A stretch of 64,000 nt of DNA from a virus. The notes below the pieces were generated by a model. It was given only the letters and a program-made list of their open reading frames with translations, made no database searches and was not told where the DNA came from. This document shows positions 1,067 through 51,720 of the stretch, one piece after another. How positions within the stretch are numbered: the stretch's first letter is position 1; the number at the start of each line of letters is the position of its first letter. The stretch covers positions 1-64,000 of the IMG/VR virus record IMGVR_UViG_3300047325_000181, one strand, 5' to 3'. The position numbers and the translations under genes were made by a program.

Positions 1067-1449
1067 GCGTTTTCCGCCATTTCATCGTAGGGGGTGGGCA
1101 ATGCTGCCTTGCCGTCACTGTCAGACTCGACGGCCCAGTATGCATCGTGCCCGTTCACCTCGTCCGCCGGGTAGGGCGCCATCGGGGCGGCGCTCACCAT
1201 CACCTCTGAGGCGATGCCCATGACCGTGGCGAGTTTGCCGCGGAGTTCCTCGACCTCCTCGCACTTCGTGGCGTAGCGCTTGAACCAGTAGTCGATGCGG
1301 TCGCAGCCGCGCTCGATTCTCTTTTGCATGAGGTGCCGCGTCCTGCGGTCGTACTCGCTCGCGCGCTGAAGCTGGCACACCTTATGACTCGCCTCGTCGA
1401 GTTCGGCCTCGACGCGCTTGACGTGTACGCAGCAACGGTGATTCGGCAT
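1063..1449 (-). CDS. hypothetical coiled-coil protein, 128 aa
   Basis: The start chosen at 1449 (MPNHR...) has AAAGGAAA just upstream; an in-frame upstream ATG would run into the preceding gene. Residues about 10-75 are rich in E, K, R and leucine with scattered cysteines, suggesting a long helix or coiled coil. No family recognised. It overlaps the next gene by ATGA. Confidence 0.6.
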   Translation of the reverse strand: MPNHRCCVHVKRVEAELDEASHKVCQLQRASEYDRRTRHLMQKRIERGCDRIDYWFKRYATKCEEVEELRGKLATVMGIASEVMVSAAPMAPYPADEVNGHDAYWAVESDSDGKAALPTPYDEMAENA

Positions 1450-1488
1450 CCAGAGTTTCCTTTCGAGCCGCCGAAAGACGGCCGCCAC

Positions 1489-1650
1489 TTACAGGGGAGG
1501 CTCGACCACGAGAGACTCGACGCCCGCCGTAAAGCCCGCGGCGTAGGCGTCTTCGAGGTGCCGCGTGATGCGCTGCACGAGCGACGTGTAGCCCGTCACG
1601 TTGTCGGCGACTGCCTCGGCAACACGCTTGTAATCGGGATTAGCGGCCAT
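1489..1650 (-). CDS. small hypothetical protein, 53 aa
   Basis: A 53-residue frame (MAANPDYKRV..., ending VVEPPL) that fills the gap between its neighbours exactly. Its ATG overlaps the end of the upstream YkuD-type gene by 11 bases. It looks like a small helical protein, and its codons are G/C-ending like those of its neighbours. Function unknown. Confidence 0.6.
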   Translation of the reverse strand: MAANPDYKRVAEAVADNVTGYTSLVQRITRHLEDAYAAGFTAGVESLVVEPPL

Positions 1651-2221
1651 AGGTCACCTGCAACTTCACGGGTCCTCCGATGTCGATAACCCAGCGCACG
1701 AACGGGACGAAGATTTTCTCGTTGTCCTCATTCTGGAGGCGCAGGCACCCTTCGGTGTCGGCCCAGCCCTGCTGCATCGCGAACGGGTCCACTAGCGCCG
1801 TCCCGCCCCCGTGGATGCCGATTCCCTGGCGGCCGTGCTTCGAGAAGTCGGCGCGCGGGTCGTCGGCGATGCCGGTGAACCAGCAGCCGTAAGCCGAGTC
1901 GTCGATGTTGTTCTGACGGACGCCGCCGTCTTCGAGACGGGTCGCGCAAGCCTGCGGGAGACCGACGAGATAGTTCGAGCCGGGCGGGCACTTGCAATAC
2001 CTGCCGTAGACGTCCTGGCCCGCTTGCACGTGCGCATCGCCCACCCCAACGTCGCGGCACTGGATGACGTGCTTGAGCCCGTCGGTCGAACCGTAGCGCT
2101 CGGCACCGTGCAAAAAGAGCTTCATCGAGCGGTAAAAACCGTCGAAGACGATGGAGCCATAGAAGTCGCCGGTGATGCCGATACCGCCGATGGTCGGCGT
2201 GTCGAGCGTCGCAGTGCCCAG
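1640..2221 (-). CDS. L,D-transpeptidase-like (YkuD-fold) protein with probable CTG start
   Basis: The C-terminal half carries the YkuD signature: a histidine in GIGIHGGG, then about 17 residues later TEGCLRLQNED, where the cysteine is the expected nucleophile. This matches L,D-transpeptidases or carboxypeptidases that act on peptidoglycan, so a lytic or cell-wall role is inferred. The first ATG is at 2125, but coding sequence continues upstream (GITGDFYGSIVFDGFYRS) to a TGA that ends the previous gene in the same frame. The only start-like codon after that TGA is CTG at 2219-2221, with AAGAAAGG 9 bases before it. Alternatives are a shorter protein from 2125 or readthrough of the TGA. Confidence 0.7.
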   Translation of the reverse strand: MGTATLDTPTIGGIGITGDFYGSIVFDGFYRSMKLFLHGAERYGSTDGLKHVIQCRDVGVGDAHVQAGQDVYGRYCKCPPGSNYLVGLPQACATRLEDGGVRQNNIDDSAYGCWFTGIADDPRADFSKHGRQGIGIHGGGTALVDPFAMQQGWADTEGCLRLQNEDNEKIFVPFVRWVIDIGGPVKLQVTYGR

Positions 2222-2224
2222 AGG

Positions 2225-2422
2225 TCAGAACCTTTCTTGGTCCCCAGAAGCGTACCGCTTCCGAGCCTGGCGAGTCAAGTTCCGAAAGTCCGCGAAGTAG
2301 GCCTGACGCAAGTCCGCGAGCGCGGCGTCGTACGCCCGCATGACCGTCGCGCAGACGTCCGGCGCAAGGCCAGTCTCATGCGAGACGCGCTTCAAGAGTT
2401 TCTTGCGCTCGTCGTCCGGCAT
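2225..2422 (-). CDS. small hypothetical protein, 65 aa
   Basis: A charged, helical 65-residue protein beginning MPDDERKKLLKRV. It ends in TGA, and the same frame stays open into the YkuD-type gene, so it might be the N-terminal part of a readthrough product. Its own ATG lies 3 bases after the stop of the upstream tiny membrane gene. No family recognised. Confidence 0.6.
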   Translation of the reverse strand: MPDDERKKLLKRVSHETGLAPDVCATVMRAYDAALADLRQAYFADFRNLTRQARKRYASGDQERF

Positions 2423-2425
2423 ACT

Positions 2426-2518
2426 TTAGCGGTTTCGCCACGCGAAGATGACGCCGAGCAACACGAAGGTGAGCAACAACAGGCTCCCCATGAGCAAACC
2501 TGCGGCGCCCTCGCTCAC
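2426..2518 (-). CDS. tiny membrane peptide B, 30 aa
   Basis: The GTG start overlaps the stop of the preceding tiny gene (GTGA). The peptide has one strongly hydrophobic segment (LLMGSLLLLTFVLLGVIFAW) and a basic C-terminus. Together with the next peptide upstream and the YkuD-type gene it could form a small lysis-type cassette. That is inference from position and topology only. Confidence 0.5.
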   Translation of the reverse strand: MSEGAAGLLMGSLLLLTFVLLGVIFAWRNR

Positions 2519-2819: not shown

Positions 2820-2923
2820 GCACGAAACCCTCGGTCTTTGTCTTTTGTTTGACTTATGGGAAGTCAGGGTACCCCGTAGCCAGTGGCCATATCAGCCACA
2901 ACCCTGATAGGAGAGACTACCAA

Positions 2924-3775
2924 ATGCAAACGACCATCGAAAGGCCCGTCGTCGGGTCGGTCGACGAGGAGCGGCTCGAAGTGCGCATGCTCCCCGTCAG
3001 TGATTTAGCCGTCGACCGCAAGTACCAGCGCATTCTCGACAAGAACTGGTGCAACAAGACCGCGCAACGCTGGCGCCCCGAACTCGCGCAAGCGCTCGAA
3101 GTGAGTGTCCGGCAAAGCGAGTCCTACGGCGAGCAGTTCTTCGTGATTGACGGACAGCATCGACTCGAAGCCGCAAAGATTCGCGGCATTCCGGCGTTGC
3201 CGTGCATCATCCATCGCGACCTCGCTTCGCAAGACGAGGCGACGCTCTTCGTGCAGTTGCAAAAGAACCGGCGACCGCTCGGAAGCATCGACTTGTTTTG
3301 GGCGATGTTTCACTCGAACGACCCGAGTGCCGTGCGCATCGCTGAGATATGCGAGAAGCACGGGTTCATCATCGCGCGCAAGCTCGGCGATAATGCCAAC
3401 AACAAAATCGCCTGCGTCTCCGCACTCCAGCGCGTCTACCGCTACGGCGAAGGAACGCTCGAAGAGACGCTCTCGGTCTTGCGCGATACCTGGGATGGTC
3501 AGCACGATTCGCTCTTGCGAAACGTCGTGCAAGGTCTCGGGCGCTTCATCCAAGCGTTCGCGTTGCACGAAAACTACGCGCACGGCGCACTCGTCGACAA
3601 GCTGAAGGCCACGAGCGTTACGTCGCTCGCTGCTATCGGCGAAGGGAGGGCGCGTGATTTCAAACTCTCGGCACCGAACGGCTTTGCGCGCGCGGTCCTG
3701 GAGCAGTACAATCACCGGCGACAACATCGCAAGCTCCCACCGAGCTTCTTGATTGCCGACGACGCAGCGGCGTAA
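2924..3775 (+). CDS. ParB/Srx-fold nuclease-domain protein
   Basis: A 283-residue protein. Residues about 25-110 look like a ParB/sulfiredoxin-type domain: an N-terminal strand-helix region (LPVSDLAVDRKYQRIL), then FFVIDGQHRLEAA, where DGQHR is the characteristic phosphate-binding motif. The C-terminal 170 residues are helical. The start at 2924 is preceded by AGGAGA; an earlier in-frame ATG at 2849 lacks a comparable site. It stands alone on the plus strand between leftward operons and ends in a strong hairpin terminator. In phages such proteins are often of unknown role, perhaps DNA binding or nuclease. Confidence 0.75.
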   Translation: MQTTIERPVVGSVDEERLEVRMLPVSDLAVDRKYQRILDKNWCNKTAQRWRPELAQALEVSVRQSESYGEQFFVIDGQHRLEAAKIRGIPALPCIIHRDLASQDEATLFVQLQKNRRPLGSIDLFWAMFHSNDPSAVRIAEICEKHGFIIARKLGDNANNKIACVSALQRVYRYGEGTLEETLSVLRDTWDGQHDSLLRNVVQGLGRFIQAFALHENYAHGALVDKLKATSVTSLAAIGEGRARDFKLSAPNGFARAVLEQYNHRRQHRKLPPSFLIADDAAA

Positions 3776-4376: not shown

Positions 4377-4738
4377 GCCACCTTCGTTGCGTAGAGTTTC
4401 CGGTTGAGTGTTTTGTGCTGGTCGCTTTGCTGCTGGCCCCACACCGTGTACACCACGTATCCCGTTCCCACCGCCATCACGAGGTCGAGCCCGGGAGCCA
4501 CCTCGAACCGCACGAGCACCTGCGTCACCTTTTTGCCTTCGAGCCGCACTTCCACGAGTTCGCACTCGCCGAGCACGATTTGCTTCGGGAGGAGCGCCGT
4601 CAGGTTGCCGTACTTGTCGTCGGCCGCGGCTTCCCGCGCATGCTTCGTGTAGGTCAGAGTTCCCGGTGTCATCGGCAATTTGATTTTCGGAAGGAACACG
4701 TCTTTGTGAAATCTCTGTTCGCCCTGGTTCATCATCAT
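4373..4738 (-). CDS. hypothetical protein, 121 aa, first gene of an operator-controlled operon
   Basis: Starts at the first of three ATGs, five bases after GGAGG. Residues about 25-110 are beta-rich (repeated short strands in V, E, L and T), suggesting a small barrel. The gene lies just behind a promoter with the CCAGCGCGCTGG palindrome and so is probably expressed early. Function unknown. Confidence 0.65.
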   Translation of the reverse strand: MMMNQGEQRFHKDVFLPKIKLPMTPGTLTYTKHAREAAADDKYGNLTALLPKQIVLGECELVEVRLEGKKVTQVLVRFEVAPGLDLVMAVGTGYVVYTVWGQQQSDQHKTLNRKLYATKVA

Positions 4739-4754
4739 TTCAACCTCCACTGAT

Positions 4755-4783
4755 ATGATATACCAGCGCGCTGGAAATGTCAA
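4755..4783 (-). promoter_or_regulatory. sigma70-like promoter with CCAGCGCGCTGG operator (P1)
   Basis: TTGACA, 17-base spacer containing the perfect 12-base palindrome, TATCAT, then GGAGG ahead of the ATG at 4738. About 47 bases here are nearly identical to the promoter at 24653-24681. Confidence 0.8.
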
Positions 4784-4787
4784 CGAC

Positions 4788-4799
4788 TAGGGCGCCCTA
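4788..4799. promoter_or_regulatory. palindrome TAGGGCGCCCTA
   Basis: A perfect 12-base inverted repeat between the end of the helicase gene and the -35 of P1. It could be a second protein-binding site. It is too short, and lacks a T-run, to be a convincing terminator. Confidence 0.3.
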
Positions 4800-4814
4800 A
4801 CGGTGTGCGCTACG

Positions 4815-6269
4815 TCACAGTGCGTCCTTGAAGGGCATGCGCACCTCGCCGGTCTCAGGGTCGGCACCGTCAGCCTCGGCGGCTCGGCGGTGCTCCTCCT
4901 GGACCTCGCGGGCGAACCAGGACCTGCGGCCGTCGAGCGCCTCGTACCACGTCAGATGCTCGCCGACGAACTCCATTTGGACCGAGCCTGTTTTACCGTC
5001 ACGCACCTTACCGACGATGAGCGCGGCGCGCGTCGGCGGGATGACGTCGCCCGAGTCGTCTTTCTTGTCCGGGTCGTTGTCGGGGTTCGCTCGCCAGGGG
5101 AAGATGATGGTCGTCGCGTGACCCTCGGCATTCCCGCCGTCGCGTAAGTGGAACATGCTCGGCTTTTTGTCGGCCGCGGCCCGGTTCATGTGGAAAACGA
5201 CGTGCATTGCGCACTTCAATTCGGCGCTGAGCGAGACGAGGTCCATGAGCACCGAGTCGAGCACTGCATGCTTGTTGCCCTTAACCCCGGCGTCCACAAG
5301 GTCGCCGATGAATCCGATGTGGTCGATGTGGATAGCTGAGACGCCGGTCCGCGTCGCGGCGAGACGCGCCGCGAGCTTGATTTCGTGAAGCGTCATCCGC
5401 GGCGAGCGGTCAAAGAACTGGATAGGGAGCGGTTCGAGATGCGCCTGCGCTCGGTCAAGGAATGTCCGCTCGGTGACGGTCAGCGAGTCGGCCATTCGGA
5501 ACTTGCCGACCGGCACCCCGGAGACCATCGAGAGAATGCGCTCCGACGTCGCGGCCTCGCCCATTTCGAGCGCGAAGAAGAGCACCTTCCCGTGGCTCGC
5601 GCCATACTTGACGGCGTTGTAGTGGGCGAGATTGATTTGCGTGATGCTCTTGCCCATCCCGGGAGCCGCTGCCCATAGCACAAGCTCCCCCGGCTTAAAA
5701 CCACCCGTCAGCCGGTCAAGCGACGGCCACGGGGTCATAAAGGGCTTCGACGTCCGTGGGTGGTCGATAGCGTATCGGACGCCACGCAGCACCTCGATGT
5801 GCTCGTGCCCCTCGATGCTCTTGCGGACCCCGGCTCCGCCGAGAACCTGCTGCGTGGCCCAATCCGCGAGCGCGGTGGAGTCGACGAACCGTTCGGTCAT
5901 CGCCGCCTCGTGAAGCTGACGGCCGACCGCGGCGAGCCGCCGGGAAGCGGCCTTATCCGCCACGATGCGAGCGTAGTATTCCGCGGTCGTGCTCGTCGGG
6001 ACGACGTCCATGAGGCTCGTCAGATATGCGATGCCCTCGGCTCCAAACTTCGGGTCCTTGCGCATCTCTTCGGCAACGGTGATTTTGTCGAGCGGCGCTC
6101 CGGCGTCAGCGAGCTTGCACATCACGAGCCAGAGCTTCTCGTGGCTCGGCGAGTAAAAGTCGCTCGGCTTGAGCAACGGCGCGACGACGTCCCACATCGA
6201 GCGGTCAATCATCACGCAGCCGAGGGTCGCCTGTTCAGCTTCGAGGGAGTGCGGCGGGATGTCGGTCAT
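4815..6269 (-). CDS. dnaB: replicative DNA helicase, DnaB family
   Basis: A 484-residue DnaB-type helicase that should unwind DNA ahead of the phage fork. It has the N-terminal DnaB domain (residues 1-100, with LEAEQATLGCVM), a linker, and a RecA-like core with Walker A APGMGKS at about 202-208, a Walker B-like segment IHIDHIG at about 313-319, and a downstream FHMNR arginine/histidine segment. The length is normal for the family. The start overlaps the end of the DUF1376 gene (ATGA), a common pairing of phage loader/initiator and helicase. Confidence 0.93.
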   Translation of the reverse strand: MTDIPPHSLEAEQATLGCVMIDRSMWDVVAPLLKPSDFYSPSHEKLWLVMCKLADAGAPLDKITVAEEMRKDPKFGAEGIAYLTSLMDVVPTSTTAEYYARIVADKAASRRLAAVGRQLHEAAMTERFVDSTALADWATQQVLGGAGVRKSIEGHEHIEVLRGVRYAIDHPRTSKPFMTPWPSLDRLTGGFKPGELVLWAAAPGMGKSITQINLAHYNAVKYGASHGKVLFFALEMGEAATSERILSMVSGVPVGKFRMADSLTVTERTFLDRAQAHLEPLPIQFFDRSPRMTLHEIKLAARLAATRTGVSAIHIDHIGFIGDLVDAGVKGNKHAVLDSVLMDLVSLSAELKCAMHVVFHMNRAAADKKPSMFHLRDGGNAEGHATTIIFPWRANPDNDPDKKDDSGDVIPPTRAALIVGKVRDGKTGSVQMEFVGEHLTWYEALDGRRSWFAREVQEEHRRAAEADGADPETGEVRMPFKDAL

Positions 6270-7171
6270 ATTCCGGTGTCCCGGCTTTCGTAGGTTGCGA
6301 CCGTGGTCGGTACGAGCGTCATGTCAGTGGTCCCTCCTGGTTTCTTGCGAGGCGGCAGGGCGAGCTTAACGAGTTCGTCCTGGATGATTTTGAGCATGTA
6401 CGGCGCCTGTCCAAGTCGCTCTGAGGCGCTTGCGAAGGCGACGAGGATTTCGTCGTCGGTCCTCCCGAGCGCGGCAAGGTCGCGAGCGGCGGCCTTATTG
6501 CGCTGACCCCACTGGGTTCGGGTCATGCCTCGGCCGACGACGGTCTGCACCTTCGGCCAGAGAAGGGCGAGGATGTCCCGTGCTCGCTGCTCCGTCGGGT
6601 CCGGCAACTTCAGAACCGTCGGCTCGCGCTGCCTGGACGAAACGGCCAGGCTAGAGACGCTAGTCTCTAGCTCTATAGAAGACGAAGATGAAGTAGAAGA
6701 CGAAGAGTTAACATTTGGCTTAACCGACGCTATAGGCGTCGCTAGTGGCGTCGCTAGTGGCACCGCTTCGGTTTCGCTAGTAGCGCCGCTAGTGGCGACG
6801 CTTCTTTTCCCTCGTGCGGCGGCGCCTTTCTTGCCGTTTTCGCTTTGGGCGCGCTTATAGGCGATTTGTTGGGCGCGCGTCTCTTCTTGGCGACGGTTGA
6901 CCAAACGGGTGGCATCGCTTGGGTGTTCGATGAAGCACCGCTTAAGCGACGCCCATAGCGGTGCCATCTCTTCGCTAGTGGCGCCGACTAAGCGGGCGCA
7001 ACGCTCGGCGTCGTTCGGTATCGAACCCTTTTTCCAAGAATGACAAAGAAGCCGGATATAAGCGCCGCTCTCGGCGAGGCTCATCTCGGCTTGGTCGGAG
7101 TCACTCAGGTAGTCACCGGCGTAGAATTGGAACGCGGGACCCCACTCCGTATCGGCACTTTCAGATGACAA
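6266..7171 (-). CDS. DUF1376 (YdaU-like) replication protein
   Basis: The N-terminal 100 residues match the DUF1376/YdaU pattern (FYAGDYLSDS, LAESGAYIRLLCHSW, IPNDAERCARLVGA). A disordered serine/threonine-rich linker (residues about 120-185) leads to a C-terminal helical domain. Such proteins sit beside phage helicases and are thought to take part in initiation or helicase loading. The start is TTG at 7169-7171 with AAAGAGG upstream. The start is well separated from the upstream erf operon by a hairpin at 7257-7287. Confidence 0.8.
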   Translation of the reverse strand: MSSESADTEWGPAFQFYAGDYLSDSDQAEMSLAESGAYIRLLCHSWKKGSIPNDAERCARLVGATSEEMAPLWASLKRCFIEHPSDATRLVNRRQEETRAQQIAYKRAQSENGKKGAAARGKRSVATSGATSETEAVPLATPLATPIASVKPNVNSSSSTSSSSSIELETSVSSLAVSSRQREPTVLKLPDPTEQRARDILALLWPKVQTVVGRGMTRTQWGQRNKAAARDLAALGRTDDEILVAFASASERLGQAPYMLKIIQDELVKLALPPRKKPGGTTDMTLVPTTVATYESRDTGI

Positions 7172-10549: not shown

Positions 10550-10766
10550 ATACCGGCTCGACGCCCTCGCGGTCCTCCGCATTTGGTGGCTCCAGTTCTC
10601 CTCGTGGGCGAACCGTTTCTGGTGGCGCGATGTGCGCGGCCGGTGCCCCGACTACGGGTGCCACCGCAAACTCATCCGCGCCTGGATGAAGCCCTACGGG
10701 TTTCCCGGCCGGACGTGCCCCCAGGACCATCACTTCTACCTCGAAGGAGCGCCCCGGTGGCACTGA
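10344..10766 (+). CDS. hypothetical protein overlapping the RusA-like gene
   Basis: GTG start with a good TAGGAG site six bases upstream. It overlaps the preceding frame by 206 bases. Its first 35 residues and last 75 residues look coding (tryptophan-rich RIWWLQFSSWANRFWW, and CPDYGCH with later C and HH, a possible zinc site), but residues 36-70 are P/S/T-rich like an out-of-frame shadow. Either two genes overlap here or a one-base indel or programmed shift joins frames. Coordinates are therefore provisional. Confidence 0.45.
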   Translation: MEHNRNLSHAQPDVIMAFGKQEALRHLSPLAEENVPPRPPRPVMRSFTTSTSRNTSPTRKTSFAASVDRYRLDALAVLRIWWLQFSSWANRFWWRDVRGRCPDYGCHRKLIRAWMKPYGFPGRTCPQDHHFYLEGAPRWH

Positions 10767-11401
10767 AGCAGATTCCGGTCGGCCAGATAGAGCCGCACCC
10801 GAAGAACCCGAACTCGATGGCCCCGGACGCCTTTAAGAAGCTCCAACGCCACATCGAGCGCACGAGCTTCTACCCGCCGGTCATCGTCCGGCCGCTCGAC
10901 GACGGCCGGTACCAGATGATAGACGGCTGGCACCGCTACCTCATCGTGCGCGACCACCTCAAGCGCGACAAGGTCGCAGCTATCGTGGCGGAGGTCTCCG
11001 AGACCGAAGCCGACATGATGCTCGCAACCCTGAACCGGCTCCACGGCGAGGACGACCCGCGGGCGCGCGCGGAACTCGTGAGCGACCTCCTCCAAGAATA
11101 TGGCTCGGTCGTGGCCCTAGCGGACCTGCTCCCGGAGTCTCAGACCGAAATCAACACCATGCTCAAGAACCTAGAGAACGGGTTCGGCGGCGGCGATGAA
11201 CCCGAGCCCGATGAGCCCGGCGAAAAGAAGAAGATGAAGCTCCAGTTCACCGCGGACCAGTGGCTGGTCATCGGTGAGGCGCTCTCTATCATCAAGCGAC
11301 GTGCTGGCCTCGGAGAGAACGAAGTCGAACGGTGCTTCGAGTTCCTGGCGGCAGACTGGCTCGGCGGCCAAGAGCGCGTCGAGAGCCGCAACCTGAACTA
11401 G
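10757..11401 (+). CDS. second ParB-fold protein, 214 aa
   Basis: GTG start after AAGGAG, overlapping the previous stop. The N-terminal 100 residues are ParB-like: IPVGQIEPHPKNPNSM, VIVRPLDDGRYQMIDGWHRYLI, where DGWHR corresponds to the GERR/DGxHR motif. An acidic linker (residues about 140-155) is followed by a C-terminal helical part. Unrelated in length and tail to the ParB-fold protein at 2924. It ends convergently with the ribbon-helix-helix gene, stop codons overlapping. Confidence 0.75.
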   Translation: MALKQIPVGQIEPHPKNPNSMAPDAFKKLQRHIERTSFYPPVIVRPLDDGRYQMIDGWHRYLIVRDHLKRDKVAAIVAEVSETEADMMLATLNRLHGEDDPRARAELVSDLLQEYGSVVALADLLPESQTEINTMLKNLENGFGGGDEPEPDEPGEKKKMKLQFTADQWLVIGEALSIIKRRAGLGENEVERCFEFLAADWLGGQERVESRNLN

Positions 11402-46516: not shown

Positions 46517-47047
46517 TCAGGCGCGCGAAGTCCTCAAGGCCAGGCGCTCGCAGACGAAGCTATTGTCTTCCTCGACCACGAGGTCGATGACCATGCTCTC
46601 GACGGTCTCGTACTTGAAGTCGTCGCGCGCGACGCGCCCTTCGAGATTCGAGGCGAAGAGGATGCGGCCGAAGAGCGCCGCCGGGGCGAGCCCGAGCACG
46701 ATTTGGGGCGCGGCGGTCGTAATCACCATCCCGGCCGGGCGCTTTTCGAGCGTTACCGAGCGGCGCTCGGCTTCGGACCAGTCCGATTCGAGAACGGCGC
46801 TGACCCCGTCGTAGGGGCCGAGATTCTTGAGACGCTGGAAAGTCGAGGCCCAGTTCTGAGCGGCCCAGGTCCCCTGGAGAACGGTCAGCGCCCCGAGCAG
46901 CATGCAATCGCCAGTGTAAACCGCGGCCCCGATGCGCGTCACGCGCCGGAAGCGGGCGCGGTGCGTCAGGACCAGTTCGCCGACGGCCACGTACTCAATC
47001 GGGACGAGACCGCGCTGCGTGACGACGCGGCAACCGACGGCGACCAC
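46517..47047 (-). CDS. free-standing Hint-domain (intein-like) protein, 176 aa
   Basis: GTG start directly after the gp7-like gene. Residues 6-50 align with the start of the upstream intein (CRVVTQRGLVPIE, VGELVLTHRARFRRV), and its end (VIDLVVEEDNSFVCERLAL) with intein block F. The initiator Met falls where inteins have Cys1/Ser1, and the terminal His-Asn is replaced by LALRTSRA, so it should not splice. It may be a decayed intein or a Hint protein with another use. No other family was seen. Confidence 0.65.
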   Translation of the reverse strand: MVAVGCRVVTQRGLVPIEYVAVGELVLTHRARFRRVTRIGAAVYTGDCMLLGALTVLQGTWAAQNWASTFQRLKNLGPYDGVSAVLESDWSEAERRSVTLEKRPAGMVITTAAPQIVLGLAPAALFGRILFASNLEGRVARDDFKYETVESMVIDLVVEEDNSFVCERLALRTSRA

Positions 47048-48817
47048 TTACGTGGGCTCGTAGGGAAGCCAGACGCACCGGCAGTTGTGAACCGCAATTC
47101 CTTCCACGATAAACGAAGCGTCGCGCTCGACTTGCAAGCAAACGACATCGCCTCCGTAAAGGGATTGTGATATACTTGACTCGTGCTCTCTAAGGACGAG
47201 GTTGCCACACTTTACGCCAAGCACATCGCTGACGGCTTCAGCGTAAAGGAGCTTGCTCGCGACATCGGACGCAGTCGCGCCTATTTGGTTGCGCAATTCG
47301 AGCGCTACGGCCTGAAGCAACGCGGCATCGCCGACTCGAATCGAGTGACGCGAAAGCGACTCAAACACGCCCTCACCCTTCAAAGTAAGGGCTCTATGAC
47401 GGTTCTCGAAAAGCTGATGCACGACGCGCTCGTAGCTTTGGGAGAGAGCCCGGTTTCTCAATACGCTGTCGAGTACCTGAATATCGATGTCGCCATACCT
47501 GACGCTTTGGTGGCTATAGAGATTGATGGAGGGGGCTGGCACGGAAGCGACCCCCGGAAAAAGACTCAGGACGCGAACAAGCAGGCGCTGCTCCAGTCGC
47601 GCGGCTGGGCCATTGTGCGCATTTGGAGCATTGGGAAGCGCTTTCGCAAGCGCTTCCCAGCCTATGCCGAGGACATTGTCGCCCTTGCCAATCTCCGTCG
47701 GCAAACGCCACCCGTCGCGCGTCAGAACGGCGTGGTCGCCCGTTATCCGCGCCCCGCCGATGTCGAAGATAGAGCCCGAATGCTTACGGCGAGACGTCGC
47801 AAGTACCCGCGCAAACCGTCCATGATGGGTAAGCACGTACTGACCTGGACTGACCGACCCGATGCGCTGGAGCCCATCGGGAGTGATGACGCGACAATCT
47901 TCCGTGACTGACCTGGGATGCAGCGGGATGACCGGGAGATAGTCGTCGACCTTACGGCCGTAGTTCGACTCGCCGATGATGTCCTTGATGCGCCGGGCCT
48001 TGTCGTTGATGAGGCGCAGGCAGTGGTCGCAAACGCGCGAGTCGTGCGCGCTCGACCCGATACACCACTCGAAACCTTGGTCGAGCAGTTCCTGGAGGCG
48101 TCCCTGGCTCTCGGCTCTGGCTGTCTCCGTGATGGCGATAGTTCCGAAATCGAGGTTGTAGTTGCGCGTCGTGTTCGCCATCGCGCGAGCCACCTCGCGC
48201 GGATTCTTGCCGAGCGCCGCGGCGCCGATAAGCTGCTGGCGAAGCTCGGACTTCATTTCCTCGAACTTGCTGTCTAGCTCGTTGAATGTATTGTGTTCGA
48301 GGAACTCGATGGCTCGCCGGTCCTCCGCCGTCACGGGCCGGTGCAGCACGGCGCGGCCGACGTTCGGCGCCGGGCGGTTTTCGCGGCGCGCGCTCGCCAA
48401 GCGGTGGTTGATGGCCGCCTCGGTCGCGAGCATCTGGCCGATGAGGTACGCCTGCATCGGGTGCGAGGCAAGCTCGACCATCGCTTTGGCCTTCCAGTCC
48501 TCGACGGACTGGTCAATCGTGTACGGGTCGAGCCCTTCCCACGTCCCGCCGGTCTTCTCGTAAAGCTGGTCGACAAGCTCGCGAAGCTGGCGCGCGAGGT
48601 CGGGCTGGCCTGCGATGAGCGCCCGGTACACCTTGTCTTCGTGCGCGCCGATGGGGCGGATACCGTGGTCCCCGGGGTCGCCCGGATGCCAGTCGCGCTT
48701 CTCTAGTTCGTAGTTCCAGTGCTTTTGCAGAACGCCGAGGGCAGCGTCCGGCGCGGCGCCCTTGCGAACGGCCAACTGCGCTAAATCGAACTCGACTTCG
48801 AGGACCGTCTTATCCAT
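47048..48817 (-). CDS. minor head protein (SPP1 gp7/Mu F-like) interrupted by an intein
   Basis: A 589-codon frame. Residues 1-302 and 579-589 are the head protein: FGTIAITETARAESQGRLQE, CIGSSAHDSRVCDHCLRLIN and the closing HPR|CRCVW motif of the gp7/Mu F family, which acts in head assembly and DNA ejection. Residues 303-578 are an intein: Ser1-VTEDC-RVITPDG (block A), ITGDHAVLTRDGW (block B), CLQVERDASFIVEGIAVHN (blocks F/G, His-Asn end), and Cys +1. Splicing would give a protein of 313 residues. Part of the intein frame is antisense to a homing endonuclease gene. Confidence 0.88.
   Translation of the reverse strand: MDKTVLEVEFDLAQLAVRKGAAPDAALGVLQKHWNYELEKRDWHPGDPGDHGIRPIGAHEDKVYRALIAGQPDLARQLRELVDQLYEKTGGTWEGLDPYTIDQSVEDWKAKAMVELASHPMQAYLIGQMLATEAAINHRLASARRENRPAPNVGRAVLHRPVTAEDRRAIEFLEHNTFNELDSKFEEMKSELRQQLIGAAALGKNPREVARAMANTTRNYNLDFGTIAITETARAESQGRLQELLDQGFEWCIGSSAHDSRVCDHCLRLINDKARRIKDIIGESNYGRKVDDYLPVIPLHPRSVTEDCRVITPDGLQRIGSVSPGQYVLTHHGRFARVLATSRRKHSGSIFDIGGARITGDHAVLTRDGWRLPTEIGKGDNVLGIGWEALAKALPNAPNAHNGPAARLEQRLLVRVLSLFPGVASVPAPSINLYSHQSVRYGDIDIQVLDSVLRNRALSQSYERVVHQLFENRHRALTLKGEGVFESLSRHSIRVGDAALLQAVALELRNQIGATASDVASKLLYAEAVSDVLGVKCGNLVLREHESSISQSLYGGDVVCLQVERDASFIVEGIAVHNCRCVWLPYEPT
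47171..47176 (+). promoter_or_regulatory. extended -10 promoter for the antisense endonuclease
   Basis: TGA-TATACT on the plus strand, six bases before the GTG at 47183; predicts a leaderless mRNA transcribed against the head operon. No good -35. Confidence 0.5.
47183..47911 (+). CDS. Vsr/DUF559-like homing endonuclease encoded antisense inside the intein
   Basis: A 242-residue protein: N-terminal helix-turn-helix (SVKELARDIGRSRAYLVAQF, residues about 19-38), linker, then a PD-(D/E)xK/Vsr-like nuclease core (NIDVAIPDALVAIEIDGGGWH, then KQALLQSRGWAIVRIWS) at about 95-150. The last 65 residues are antisense to the intein's N-terminal splicing blocks and may be non-essential. The stop TGA at 47909-47911 is the complement of the intein's Ser1 codon, so the gene lies wholly inside the mobile unit. 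GTG start, leaderless. It is expected to cut the empty head gene and drive homing. Confidence 0.8.
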   Translation: MLSKDEVATLYAKHIADGFSVKELARDIGRSRAYLVAQFERYGLKQRGIADSNRVTRKRLKHALTLQSKGSMTVLEKLMHDALVALGESPVSQYAVEYLNIDVAIPDALVAIEIDGGGWHGSDPRKKTQDANKQALLQSRGWAIVRIWSIGKRFRKRFPAYAEDIVALANLRRQTPPVARQNGVVARYPRPADVEDRARMLTARRRKYPRKPSMMGKHVLTWTDRPDALEPIGSDDATIFRD

Positions 48818-49373: not shown

Positions 49374-51188
49374 CTAGTCCAGCAGCTTAACGAGGTCGTC
49401 GCGGAGCGATTCGAGGTCTGCTTTCTGAACCCCGCTGCCCGGAACCTGGGGCTTGGGCGGATGCGGCGGCTTCGGCGGCTCCGCGTCGCCGCCACCCACC
49501 CACACACCGCCGCCTTCCCCGTCCTCGCCGGGCGCCCCACCCTCGCCGCCGCCGTCTTCTTGCGGTTGGAGCGCGGGCAAGTCTTCGAGCTTGATGCCGG
49601 GCTTGGTCGCAATCGTGATGATGTCGCCGCCGGGCATCGGGGGCAGGCCGAGTTCGCGCCGGACCTCGTTGCGCGCGAGAATACCCGAATCAACCAGGGA
49701 AACGGCGCGCTGCGCGTCCTCAACGCTCTGCTCTTTATTGTCTTCGACGAACTCGAACTTGACATCGTTGAACGGGAAGATAGCTTTCGAGTAGCCGGAG
49801 AGGTCGAGCGGGTCGAGCGCGTTGTTCCGAATCCACATCTGGCCGCGGACGATTTCGCCGTTGATGAACTCCTGAATCGTGACCGCGAGCGAGTGGATGC
49901 CGCGGGACTGGGTCAGGTCCTTCTGCGTGTCGGCCGTCGTGCGGTGGAGGTCCTCGGTAAACCCGATGTCTTGGAGGGAGAGGCCGTAGACGGCGCACTT
50001 GACGTTCGCCCAGTATTTCATCAATTCGAGGACTTCGTTGTCGCGCATCGTCCCGGTCTGGAGCGGGATGAAGCCCTTGACGCCTTCCTTCGAGCCGATG
50101 AAGATGCCGCGCCGGATGCCCTTGGCGACCGACTGGTTCCACTTCATCTCGATAGCGTCGCGCTCGTCCTGACTCACTTCGGGGCCGAGGTCGAAGACGA
50201 ATTGCGGGGTGTTGTTGTTGCGGAAGAAGTCGACCATGTACTGGTCGCCGTAGAGCGCGCCGACCATCTTCTCCAGGATGACCTCGACCGGCGGCTTCCC
50301 GTAGCCGGTGCTCTGCTCGTTCTGGAGCATGTAGACGAGTTCGTCGTTGTTGTAGTACGCCTTAACGATGCCTTGGTCGTACCAATCGTAGGCCGGTTCG
50401 GGCGGCTGGGGCGTGGCGAGGTCGGGACGCCGGTAGCGCCGGACTTGGTCGCCCGGCAAGAGGTAGAGTTCGCCGAGCGCGGAGCCGTCGCAGAGCGGAT
50501 TCTTCACGATGGGCGCCGCGTCGTAGAGCGTCAGGTTGTCGACGATGCGGTTCAGGAAGGCCCGGAAGCTCGACTCGGCCGAGGGGTTCGGGCTCTCGAA
50601 CATCTCCTGGACCGGCAGGATGTGCGACTCGGCCGTCACCTCATGCGCGGCGAGGCAGTTCTCGAAGAACTCGCGCAGCCGGACGTTCTGGGAGATGTCG
50701 CTTCCGGCCGACTGCTCGGAGGAGATGACGTCGCGCAGCGCCCCGGAGGCGCGCATGAAGAAGACCGGGTCGAGCACCTGCGGCGTGAACTTCGCCTGTA
50801 ACTGCGGGTAATTCATCGTCAATTCGGAGACGGTGTGCCAGCGCTTGAGTTCGGCTTTCACCTTCTCGACGTCGGGGACGATTTTCCACTTCATCTCGCC
50901 GATGGCGCGCTTGAGCGTGTTGCGAATCGCGAAGATGATGTCGTCGCGGTCGGCCAACTGTTCGAGCGTGTAGCCCGGGATAGCGTAGCGCGAGCGCTGG
51001 ATAAGGTTCTCGCGCGTGTCCTTCGTCGACTCGGGGCGCATGAGCGACCCGCCGAGCGTCTTCGGGTCGTTGCCCTTGCGGGGCGAGACGCGCTCGGGGC
51101 CGAGGAACAAACGGCTGAATCGCCCCGGGTTCCGACGCTGCGGCGGGCGGTTTGGGCCGAGCGGGACGAGCGAATGCATCTCGGACAT
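49374..51188 (-). CDS. portal protein
   Basis: A 604-residue portal: N-terminal region, ELTMNYPQLQAKFTPQ, clip/stem region with DNLTLYDAAPIVKNPL, GELYLLPGDQVRRYRRPD, then VEVILEKMVGALYGDQYMVDFF and a helix with RTTADTQKDLTQSRGIHSLA, all typical of phage portals; proline/glycine-rich C-terminus. It forms the dodecameric ring for DNA packaging. The start at 51188 lacks a clear ribosome-binding site; an in-frame ATG at 51240 is the alternative. Confidence 0.8.
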   Translation of the reverse strand: MSEMHSLVPLGPNRPPQRRNPGRFSRLFLGPERVSPRKGNDPKTLGGSLMRPESTKDTRENLIQRSRYAIPGYTLEQLADRDDIIFAIRNTLKRAIGEMKWKIVPDVEKVKAELKRWHTVSELTMNYPQLQAKFTPQVLDPVFFMRASGALRDVISSEQSAGSDISQNVRLREFFENCLAAHEVTAESHILPVQEMFESPNPSAESSFRAFLNRIVDNLTLYDAAPIVKNPLCDGSALGELYLLPGDQVRRYRRPDLATPQPPEPAYDWYDQGIVKAYYNNDELVYMLQNEQSTGYGKPPVEVILEKMVGALYGDQYMVDFFRNNNTPQFVFDLGPEVSQDERDAIEMKWNQSVAKGIRRGIFIGSKEGVKGFIPLQTGTMRDNEVLELMKYWANVKCAVYGLSLQDIGFTEDLHRTTADTQKDLTQSRGIHSLAVTIQEFINGEIVRGQMWIRNNALDPLDLSGYSKAIFPFNDVKFEFVEDNKEQSVEDAQRAVSLVDSGILARNEVRRELGLPPMPGGDIITIATKPGIKLEDLPALQPQEDGGGEGGAPGEDGEGGGVWVGGGDAEPPKPPHPPKPQVPGSGVQKADLESLRDDLVKLLD

Positions 51189-51263
51189 AGTCAACGCAGG
51201 AGGTTCGGCCGCCCGAGGGCAAACCCCCTCGCCCGGGGCCATGAAGTCATGGTCCGGGGACAA

Positions 51264-51301
51264 TAAAAAAAGACGCGATGACGGGTACGCCTGGCTCGCG
51301 T
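51264..51301 (-). terminator. intrinsic terminator upstream of the portal gene
   Basis: Minus strand: ACGCGA stem with TCGCGT and a run of seven T after CTT. It ends the accessory operon 51457-53259 before the virion operon. Confidence 0.7.
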
Positions 51302-51328
51302 TTTCTGCTTCTTTAGGGAGATTTTGAC

Positions 51329-51460
51329 ATGCCCGACAACGAGACCGCCGAGATGACGATGAGCCAGCCCGAACAAACGGAAACGCCGACCTGCTCCCTA
51401 CCGGACGGCGTCTACAACCCGGCCGTTCACGGCCCGAACTTTTGCCCGGACTGCGGCTAA
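51329..51460 (+). CDS. tiny acidic zinc-ribbon peptide, 43 aa
   Basis: AGGGAG seven bases before the ATG. Acidic, threonine-rich N-terminus and a C-terminal FCPDCG with an earlier C (TCSLPDG). It lies alone on the plus strand and overlaps the convergent gene by four bases. Function unknown. Confidence 0.5.
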   Translation: MPDNETAEMTMSQPEQTETPTCSLPDGVYNPAVHGPNFCPDCG

Positions 51461-51720
51461 ACGAAGAGCAGTTCGTCGGCCAGCTTGCGGAACGGCGTGA
51501 CCGCCGTCTTGCGCTCGTCGACCACGTAGAGCAACCCACTGCCGGTCGGATTGATGTCGAAGTCATCCACCGGCAGTTGCTTTTTCCGGGTCACGAGCCG
51601 GAGCGCATAGTTCTCGGTCGCGGCTGAGAGCGCGCGGAAGTCGTCCCAGGAGCGGACGAAGCGGAGGCGCAGGTTGGCCCAGGCCGTGGCCTGCGGCGGG
51701 GTGAGGTTCTCGGGCGGCAT
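51457..51720 (-). CDS. hypothetical protein, 87 aa
   Basis: Helix followed by a beta region (YALRLVTRKKQLPVDDFDIN, LLYVVDERKTAV). One-base overlap with the metalloprotease-like gene. Last gene before the terminator at 51264-51301. No family recognised. Confidence 0.6.
   Translation of the reverse strand: MPPENLTPPQATAWANLRLRFVRSWDDFRALSAATENYALRLVTRKKQLPVDDFDINPTGSGLLYVVDERKTAVTPFRKLADELLFV

Follow-up and report, generated by a model that had tools for sequence, protein, structure and literature searches.

In the minor head protein gene of a phage, we identify what is most probably a mobile intein that carries its homing endonuclease as a separate antisense gene, encoded on the opposite strand of the same DNA. 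The intein, the nuclease, the codon register in which the two overlap, the retention of both frames in relatives, the horizontal spread of the element and the existence of empty alleles are all read from sequence, and splicing, cleavage, homing and expression are inferred. About 20 distinct relatives share the arrangement, including phages of Salmonella, Escherichia, Vibrio, Gordonia and Aggregatibacter and several MAGs.

An intein in a minor head protein gene

The DNA analysed here, referred to as the window, is a stretch of 64,000 nucleotides from a 73.3-kb phage record, and its GC content is 63%. The features discussed below are listed with their positions in the window, their strand and, in brackets, the evidence for each.

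49377-51566, minus strand: portal gene, upstream neighbour of the head gene (phrog_2662, 2e-31)
47048-48817, minus strand: Mu-F / SPP1 gp7-like minor head protein gene, 589-aa precursor (phrog_115 minor head protein, 1.3e-11)
47912-48817, minus strand: N-extein, residues 1-302, ending ...PVIPLHPR (phrog_115 covers residues 185-302)
47084-47911, minus strand: intein of 276 aa, head-protein residues 303-578, running from Ser1 to His-Asn within a conserved HPxC motif (boundaries, profile and Foldseek)
47642-47911, minus strand: N-terminal Hint half with blocks A and B, intein residues 1-90 (model, pLDDT mostly 87-96)
47201-47641, minus strand: middle of the intein between blocks B and F, residues 91-237, antisense of the nuclease core (predicted disordered, pLDDT mostly below 50)
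47084-47200, minus strand: C-terminal Hint half with blocks F and G, intein residues 238-276 (model; TIGR01443 above cut-off)
47051-47083, minus strand: C-extein CRCVWLPYEPT, beginning with Cys+1 (splice boundary)
46517-47047, minus strand: second, free-standing Hint-like ORF of 176 aa immediately after the head gene (Hint_2, 5e-5, below cut-off)
47183-47911, plus strand: antisense putative homing endonuclease gene, 242 aa, GTG start and TGA stop, wholly within the intein (MTES_1575 and I-Bth0305I profile)
47195-47332, plus strand: putative DNA-binding helix-turn-helix, N-terminal, residues ~5-50 (weak GcrA and HTH_23 matches; helices with pLDDT 78-91)
47378-47707, plus strand: EDxHD / DUF559 catalytic core, residues ~66-175 (profiles, predicted structure and alignment)
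47168-47176, plus strand: TGaTATACT, an extended -10-like sequence 6 nt before the GTG, a possible leaderless promoter and speculative (sequence)

The head-protein assignment rests on the phrog_115 match, a CxxC...HPxCRC region and the location of the gene downstream of the portal gene; matches to Phage_Mu_F PF04233 (7e-4) and TIGR01641 were both below their cut-offs. Within this protein the splice junctions are placed at ...PLHPR / SVTEDCRVITPDG...ASFIVEGIAVHN / CRCVWLPYEPT. Block A starts S1VTEDCRVIT, block B is T57xxH60, and blocks F and G are DVVCLQVERDASFIVEGIAVHN, followed by C+1, so that the residues expected of a splicing intein (S1, T57xxH60, H275-N276 and C+1) are present. T57, H60, H275 and N276 are invariant across 11 related inteins. 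The minus frame matches TIGR01443, a profile of the intein C-terminus, above its cut-off (17.4 vs 15.6 bits), and single-sequence matches to PF14890 (0.0026) and Hint_2 (0.05) are weak. A profile built from the 11 inteins matches PI-MtuI, the Mtu RecA intein, at 2e-10, a bacterial intein-like domain at 3e-10 and the phage intein gp41-1 at 2e-6 in the PDB, and an AlphaFold model of the window intein finds intein structures in Foldseek at 7e-5. Profile searches of the sense-frame region between blocks B and F gave no domain match, and in the model intein residues 99-233 are disordered, mostly with pLDDT below 50. The endonuclease of a canonical intein is a domain of the same polypeptide; that is not the case here, where the nuclease lies on the opposite strand.

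The free-standing ORF that follows the head gene has block A-like and block F-like parts but lacks an HN-C junction, and a counterpart with 33% identity occupies the same place in the related contig L006 (4246-4821). Elsewhere in the window, two distinct ParB-like genes are found on the plus strand (2849-3772 and 10583-11398).

A putative nuclease gene on the opposite strand

The translated plus-strand ORF matches MTES_1575 above the cut-off (4e-12), DUF559 just below the cut-off and Vsr weakly. Its EDxHD residues are E76, D102, E113-I-D115-GGGW-H120 and D130, and E76, D102 and E113 are invariant in 11 nuclease sequences; the profile match and the catalytic residues together place it in the EDxHD / MTES_1575-DUF559 nucleases. 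Searched against the PDB, a profile of the 11 related nucleases matches the DUF559 structure 3hrl (5e-12) and the catalytic domain of I-Bth0305I (3r3p, 1.3e-8), an intron homing endonuclease, and 3r3p is also the best Foldseek match of the nuclease model (E 1.1e-3). In this model residues 1-178 are mostly well predicted and residues 179-242 mostly poorly. The DNA is almost partitioned between the folded parts of the two proteins, with the C-terminal Hint half at 47084-47200, the folded nuclease at 47183-47716 and the N-terminal Hint half at 47642-47911. The nuclease occupies the usual site of an intein endonuclease domain, between blocks B and F, but is reversed.

These results bear out the preliminary description of this DNA, which had been made from the letters alone. 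It had placed an intein at residues 303-578, in exact agreement with the splice boundaries mapped here, in a gp7-like minus-strand frame with blocks A, B, F and G, Ser1, His-Asn and Cys+1, and these are as described. Its 242-codon Vsr/DUF559-like frame on the plus strand does lie entirely inside the intein. It had also proposed two profile searches, and both returned matches: the minus frame to intein and Hint profiles, with support from structure, and the plus-strand protein above cut-off to MTES_1575, with DUF559 and Vsr remaining weak.

The start of the window nuclease is uncertain, being a GTG without a good Shine-Dalgarno sequence, and a promoter scan upstream of it found no two-hexamer sigma-70 site. 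The TGA stop (47909-47911) is the exact reverse complement of the intein Ser1 codon TCA, and thus the nuclease ends at the first intein codon in the window; this is not so in Cys1 relatives.

Relatives with the same arrangement

When viral contigs were searched with the nuclease, L006, L007 and L010 were recovered, each with a head-gene intein and the nuclease inside it on the opposite strand. Cultured carriers, mostly unannotated for the nuclease, include Gordonia phage Malisha (gene 5) and Vibrio phage 1.266. Using tblastn with the head proteins of these two phages, we found Escherichia phage Snoke, Salmonella phages LSPA1 and PK1, Aaphi23, Vibrio phages VaM_H2 and 1.197.A, Gordonia phages Angelicage and Vivi2, and others. 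The PK1 record labels the antisense frame a "hypothetical protein". A tblastn search with the Salmonella nuclease matched 106 phage records and, among the annotated matches listed, the Salmonella-type nuclease underlies head, minor capsid or hypothetical protein annotations. A scan of genome contigs with the nuclease alignment found nothing.

To sample independently of the nuclease, we used the splice junction E-G-x-x-V-H-N-C-[R/K]-C as a pattern for viral and genome contigs. An antisense nuclease was present in 9 of the 13 distinct inteins chosen in this way, firmly in eight (L007/L030, L021, L022, L025, L026, L032, L033 and L036) and weakly in one (L024). L028 is a mini-intein, and no antisense nuclease match was found in L023 or L029. 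Three of the seven genome-contig matches to the junction pattern (L031, L034 and L035) proved not to be inteins. In L027 (1091-1864, plus strand) an MTES_1575/DUF559 nuclease shares the strand of the intein but not its frame, a third solution besides the in-frame and antisense ones; L004 and L005, found by another route, hold the same nuclease domain in frame within the intein.

Parts of the EDxHD motif are missing in several relatives (for example, EVFGGGWA in Salmonella phages), and some of these may be decaying or catalytically different, judging from their motifs. In L049 (Virus Rctr197k), a gene recorded as "head morphogenesis protein" (1165-2514, plus strand) resembles by eye a deoxycytidylate deaminase, and it contains an intein whose antisense nuclease gave only a weak match. 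From this case, the antisense arrangement may not be restricted to head genes. In L008 the same nuclease family is free-standing (4389-5291, plus strand) and convergent with an intein-less Mu-F head gene (5254-6522, minus strand), which it slightly overlaps; this could be a free-standing precursor or relative of the antisense arrangement.

Gordonia phage Barsten, its relatives and contig L025 have a different nuclease in antisense; in the Gordonia phages, head gene and register are those of the other cases. This second family matches phrog_5046 at 2.5e-15 and 1.4e-17 and, by profile, the LAGLIDADG enzyme I-MsoI at 2e-5, and has no match in Pfam. Among Gordonia Vividuovirus phages (Barsten, Angelicage and Sedona; L042, L050 and L057), three different inteins share one head-gene insertion site, and each has an antisense nuclease, two of EDxHD-like lineages and one LAGLIDADG-like. 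These comparisons suggest that the arrangement arose more than once. A tree of the EDxHD nuclease cores had support too weak to tell one origin from several.

Codon register and constraint on both frames

In the window, the nuclease and the minus-strand gene overlap codon on codon (register 0), as do all other antisense cases, with L042, L043, L049, L050, L056 and L057 checked from annotated coordinates. Position 3 of a nuclease codon then faces position 1 of an intein codon, and only TTA, CTA and TCA (Leu, Leu and Ser) in the nuclease would stop the intein, each of them synonymously replaceable. The other two antisense registers, by reasoning from the genetic code, would forbid some dipeptides.

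The three codons are absent from all 16 nuclease genes tested. Relative to genome codon usage, the log10P of this absence is -7.8 for Vibrio phage 1.266, -7.5 for Aaphi23, -3.7 for L036 and -2.8 for LSPA1, and ranges from -7.8 to -9.0 for Vibrio phages 1.265, VaM_H2 and 1.197.A, where the codon usage of 1.266 served as a stand-in. Five AT-rich phages thereby reach about 10^-7 to 10^-9 each. In three whole-genome controls, 0 of 118, 0 of 210 and 0 of 77 control windows of other genes were open. Because the nucleases avoid TTA, CTA and TCA while those control windows were never open, the intein frame is, on codon evidence, actively kept open in the relatives. The window by itself is weak evidence that both frames matter, because antisense frames of its GC-rich genes are often open by chance: codon usage alone gives p~0.085 for an open intein frame, and in 62 of 209 same-length control windows taken from other genes the codon-aligned antisense frame is likewise free of stops. 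The evidence for both frames therefore comes from the relatives.

Substitution patterns in Jerseyvirus-type phages address the same question. Between PK1 and SE1, differences in the overlap number 83, 22 and 59 at nuclease positions 3, 2 and 1. In the exteins the differences are 70:40:182 at sense positions 1, 2 and 3, and in Hint-only codons 5:5:26. As judged by these counts, substitutions in the overlap follow the nuclease frame, and those in the exteins and the Hint region follow the intein frame. The nuclease core of the window compared with L006 has the same nuclease pattern (60:36:81 by position). In the nuclease C-terminal tail, opposite the N-terminal Hint half, the counts are 15:6:16 and do not separate the frames; both frames look constrained there in this one comparison.

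Horizontal spread and empty sites

Salmonella phage PK1 and Shigella phage fPSFA are 93-100% identical across the intein and nuclease and about 53-75% identical in their N-exteins (DNA), with a sharp edge of identity at the insertion. Similarly, the intein is 95-100% identical between Vibrio phages 1.266 and 1.082, and extein identity falls to 62-83% just downstream. On these identity profiles, the whole element spreads horizontally between divergent exteins.

The insert is absent from more than 20 near-identical Vibrio phages. The empty head protein of Vibrio phage 1.133 equals the spliced product predicted for 1.266 at 357 of 367 positions and has a single additional Ala next to the insertion point. 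Gordonia phages Squiddly and Spooky are empty counterparts of Malisha. Horizontal spread and empty alleles in relatives lend the inferred homing function indirect support. An in-frame insertion that homologues lack at the splice junctions is thus established in relatives (Vibrio 1.133, Squiddly and Spooky). The search for intein-less relatives of the head gene, also proposed in the preliminary description, was answered in part: other phages lack the insert precisely at the junctions, but among relatives of the window phage no close relative with an empty site was found.

Alternative explanations

One alternative is that only the intein is real, and that the plus-strand frame is open merely by chance, opposite a GC-rich gene. 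The window does allow for this, with its 63% GC, the 62 of 209 controls that are open and other long antisense ORFs nearby. A chance frame would not be expected, however, to match MTES_1575 above cut-off at 4e-12 and keep E76, D102, D115, H120 and D130, to have homologues in phages of 43-53% GC, where control windows showed no open antisense frames, or to have relatives whose substitutions follow the nuclease frame. We reject this explanation, to which we give next to no chance. Conversely, the nuclease could be real and the intein frame dead, the nuclease having inserted backwards into a mini-intein and left the head gene broken or unspliced. Such a history would fit an intein loop that is predicted to be disordered and is merely the antisense of a nuclease. 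It is difficult to reconcile with the splice residues retained in the intein alignments, with exteins that remain in frame in all intact antisense loci, with the absence of TTA, CTA and TCA, whose probability is 10^-7 to 10^-9 in the AT-rich phages, and with the excess of changes at sense position 3 in Hint-only codons (26 vs 5 and 5), which shows purifying selection on that frame. The cultured carrier phages, moreover, form virions. We regard a dead intein as highly improbable and reject it as well.

A third possibility concerns function: the antisense nuclease may be a superinfection-exclusion or defence enzyme that shelters in the intein, with the intein mobilised by other means. Anti-phage proteins also have DUF559/MTES_1575 domains (NF058533 and NF042953 gave weak matches), and there are no cleavage-site data. 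Nevertheless, the homing enzyme I-Bth0305I is among the solved structures nearest to the nuclease in profile and in fold, and a LAGLIDADG homing-type nuclease takes its place in other inteins inserted at this head site. The related inteins L004 and L005 hold the same nuclease domain in frame, and the whole unit spreads between divergent exteins. A role in defence is, in our judgement, very unlikely.

Proposed mechanism

The evidence is best read as a composite element in which one strand provides splicing and the other, by inference, homing, as the preliminary description had proposed. That proposal would have failed had the minus frame lacked Hint matches or had homologous head proteins carried the region as ordinary sequence; Hint matches were found and homologues lack the insert. 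In the mechanism we propose, the sense strand would be expressed as a head-protein precursor, in which the Hint halves (blocks A/B and F/G) would fold, excise the 276-aa intein and join HPR to CRC. The stretch that separates block B from block F is the reverse complement of the gene for the putative helix-turn-helix and EDxHD nuclease, and would probably be no more than an unfolded read-through linker in the protein. The nuclease would be translated from its own antisense transcript, independently of the late head gene, and would cut intein-less head genes, so that repair copies the whole element in. Splicing, cleavage of empty sites, antisense translation and separate expression are inferences. 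Separate, perhaps earlier, expression of the nuclease is a plausible benefit of antisense placement, also inferred.

In the carriers examined, structural genes are on one strand and the nuclease is on the other. In LSPA1 and Vibrio 1.266, replication or recombination genes lie on the nuclease strand, and in the window the ParB-like genes do. At about ten loci the Shine-Dalgarno sequence and start of the nuclease (GGAGGTTATAAAC followed by ATG) are the reverse complement of block F (His-Val-Tyr-Asn-Leu). We considered whether this signal is selected, and rejected it as evidence, given that synonymous randomisation yields it fairly often (P 0.03-0.7 in those loci); it is a pre-adaptation, a partly automatic property of block F, and not proof.

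Comparison with known systems

In existing descriptions, the endonuclease of an intein belongs to the same reading frame, and its production is therefore tied to that of the host protein. Canonical large inteins such as PI-SceI and PI-MtuI contain, in frame between their blocks B and F, an endonuclease of the LAGLIDADG or HNH type. They have in common with the present element the Hint blocks, the placement of the nuclease between B and F, insertion in a conserved host motif, empty alleles and horizontal spread; unlike them, the element has its nuclease as a separate antisense gene of the EDxHD/DUF559 or I-MsoI-like type, with expression inferred to be uncoupled. Dassa et al. (2009; cited in PMC10448857) reportedly described fractured genes with split inteins and EDxHD endonucleases, the nuclease gene lying between the two split gene halves. 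Such genes and I-Bth0305I likewise tie the EDxHD nuclease family to phage inteins and introns, but the head gene studied here is unbroken, and its nuclease gene lies antisense within it. A 2025 preprint by Gosselin, Arsenault and Gogarten, "Actinobacteriophage Inteins: ... Non-Canonical Architecture" (10.1101/2025.01.02.630785), is said to be a survey of actinobacteriophage inteins. Actinobacteriophages include the Gordonia phages found here.

PMC11855218 cites that preprint for overlapping reading frames. The ShiLan insertion in phage methylases contains a hidden out-of-frame HNH (PMC11855218); it too is a mobile insertion that is open in the host frame with a nuclease in another frame, but its HNH is on the same strand in the third frame and no splicing domain was found, hence it is not an intein. 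Antisense homing endonuclease genes are known in nuclear group I introns, such as I-DsqI of Didymium (PMC9548176). There the homing gene is also on the opposite strand of a self-splicing element, but the splicing element is RNA, the gene sits in a peripheral loop and the other strand need not stay open, whereas in the phage intein the other strand is protein-coding throughout. Our literature search found no description of an antisense endonuclease in an intein, with most subscription papers outside its reach, and part of the finding may already have been reported, for example in the 2025 preprint. The back-to-back arrangement seems to have been mostly overlooked. Beyond the preliminary description, the comparisons made here establish that the architecture recurs in many unrelated phages, always in the same codon register, and involves two nuclease families or more.

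Significance

We think it somewhat probable, with less assurance than for the window element itself, that antisense-endonuclease inteins are a widespread and repeatedly assembled class of phage element, in which at least two unrelated homing-nuclease families are reversed in the Hint loop, in the sole register that costs the nuclease just three avoidable codons, allowing expression apart from the late structural host gene. In such elements, nature would repeatedly have encoded two working proteins on opposite strands of one stretch of DNA, under a simple rule (codon on codon, three forbidden codons). More than 100 sequenced phage records, among them many Salmonella Jerseyvirus-type genomes, contain the nuclease genes, for the most part without annotation, and the middle regions of many annotated "inteins" would really be antisense translations of nucleases. 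Since cultured carrier and empty phages exist, the homing prediction is directly testable. An antisense nuclease would break the link between nuclease and host protein, so that the parasite would control when to cut, which would be useful in a late head gene.
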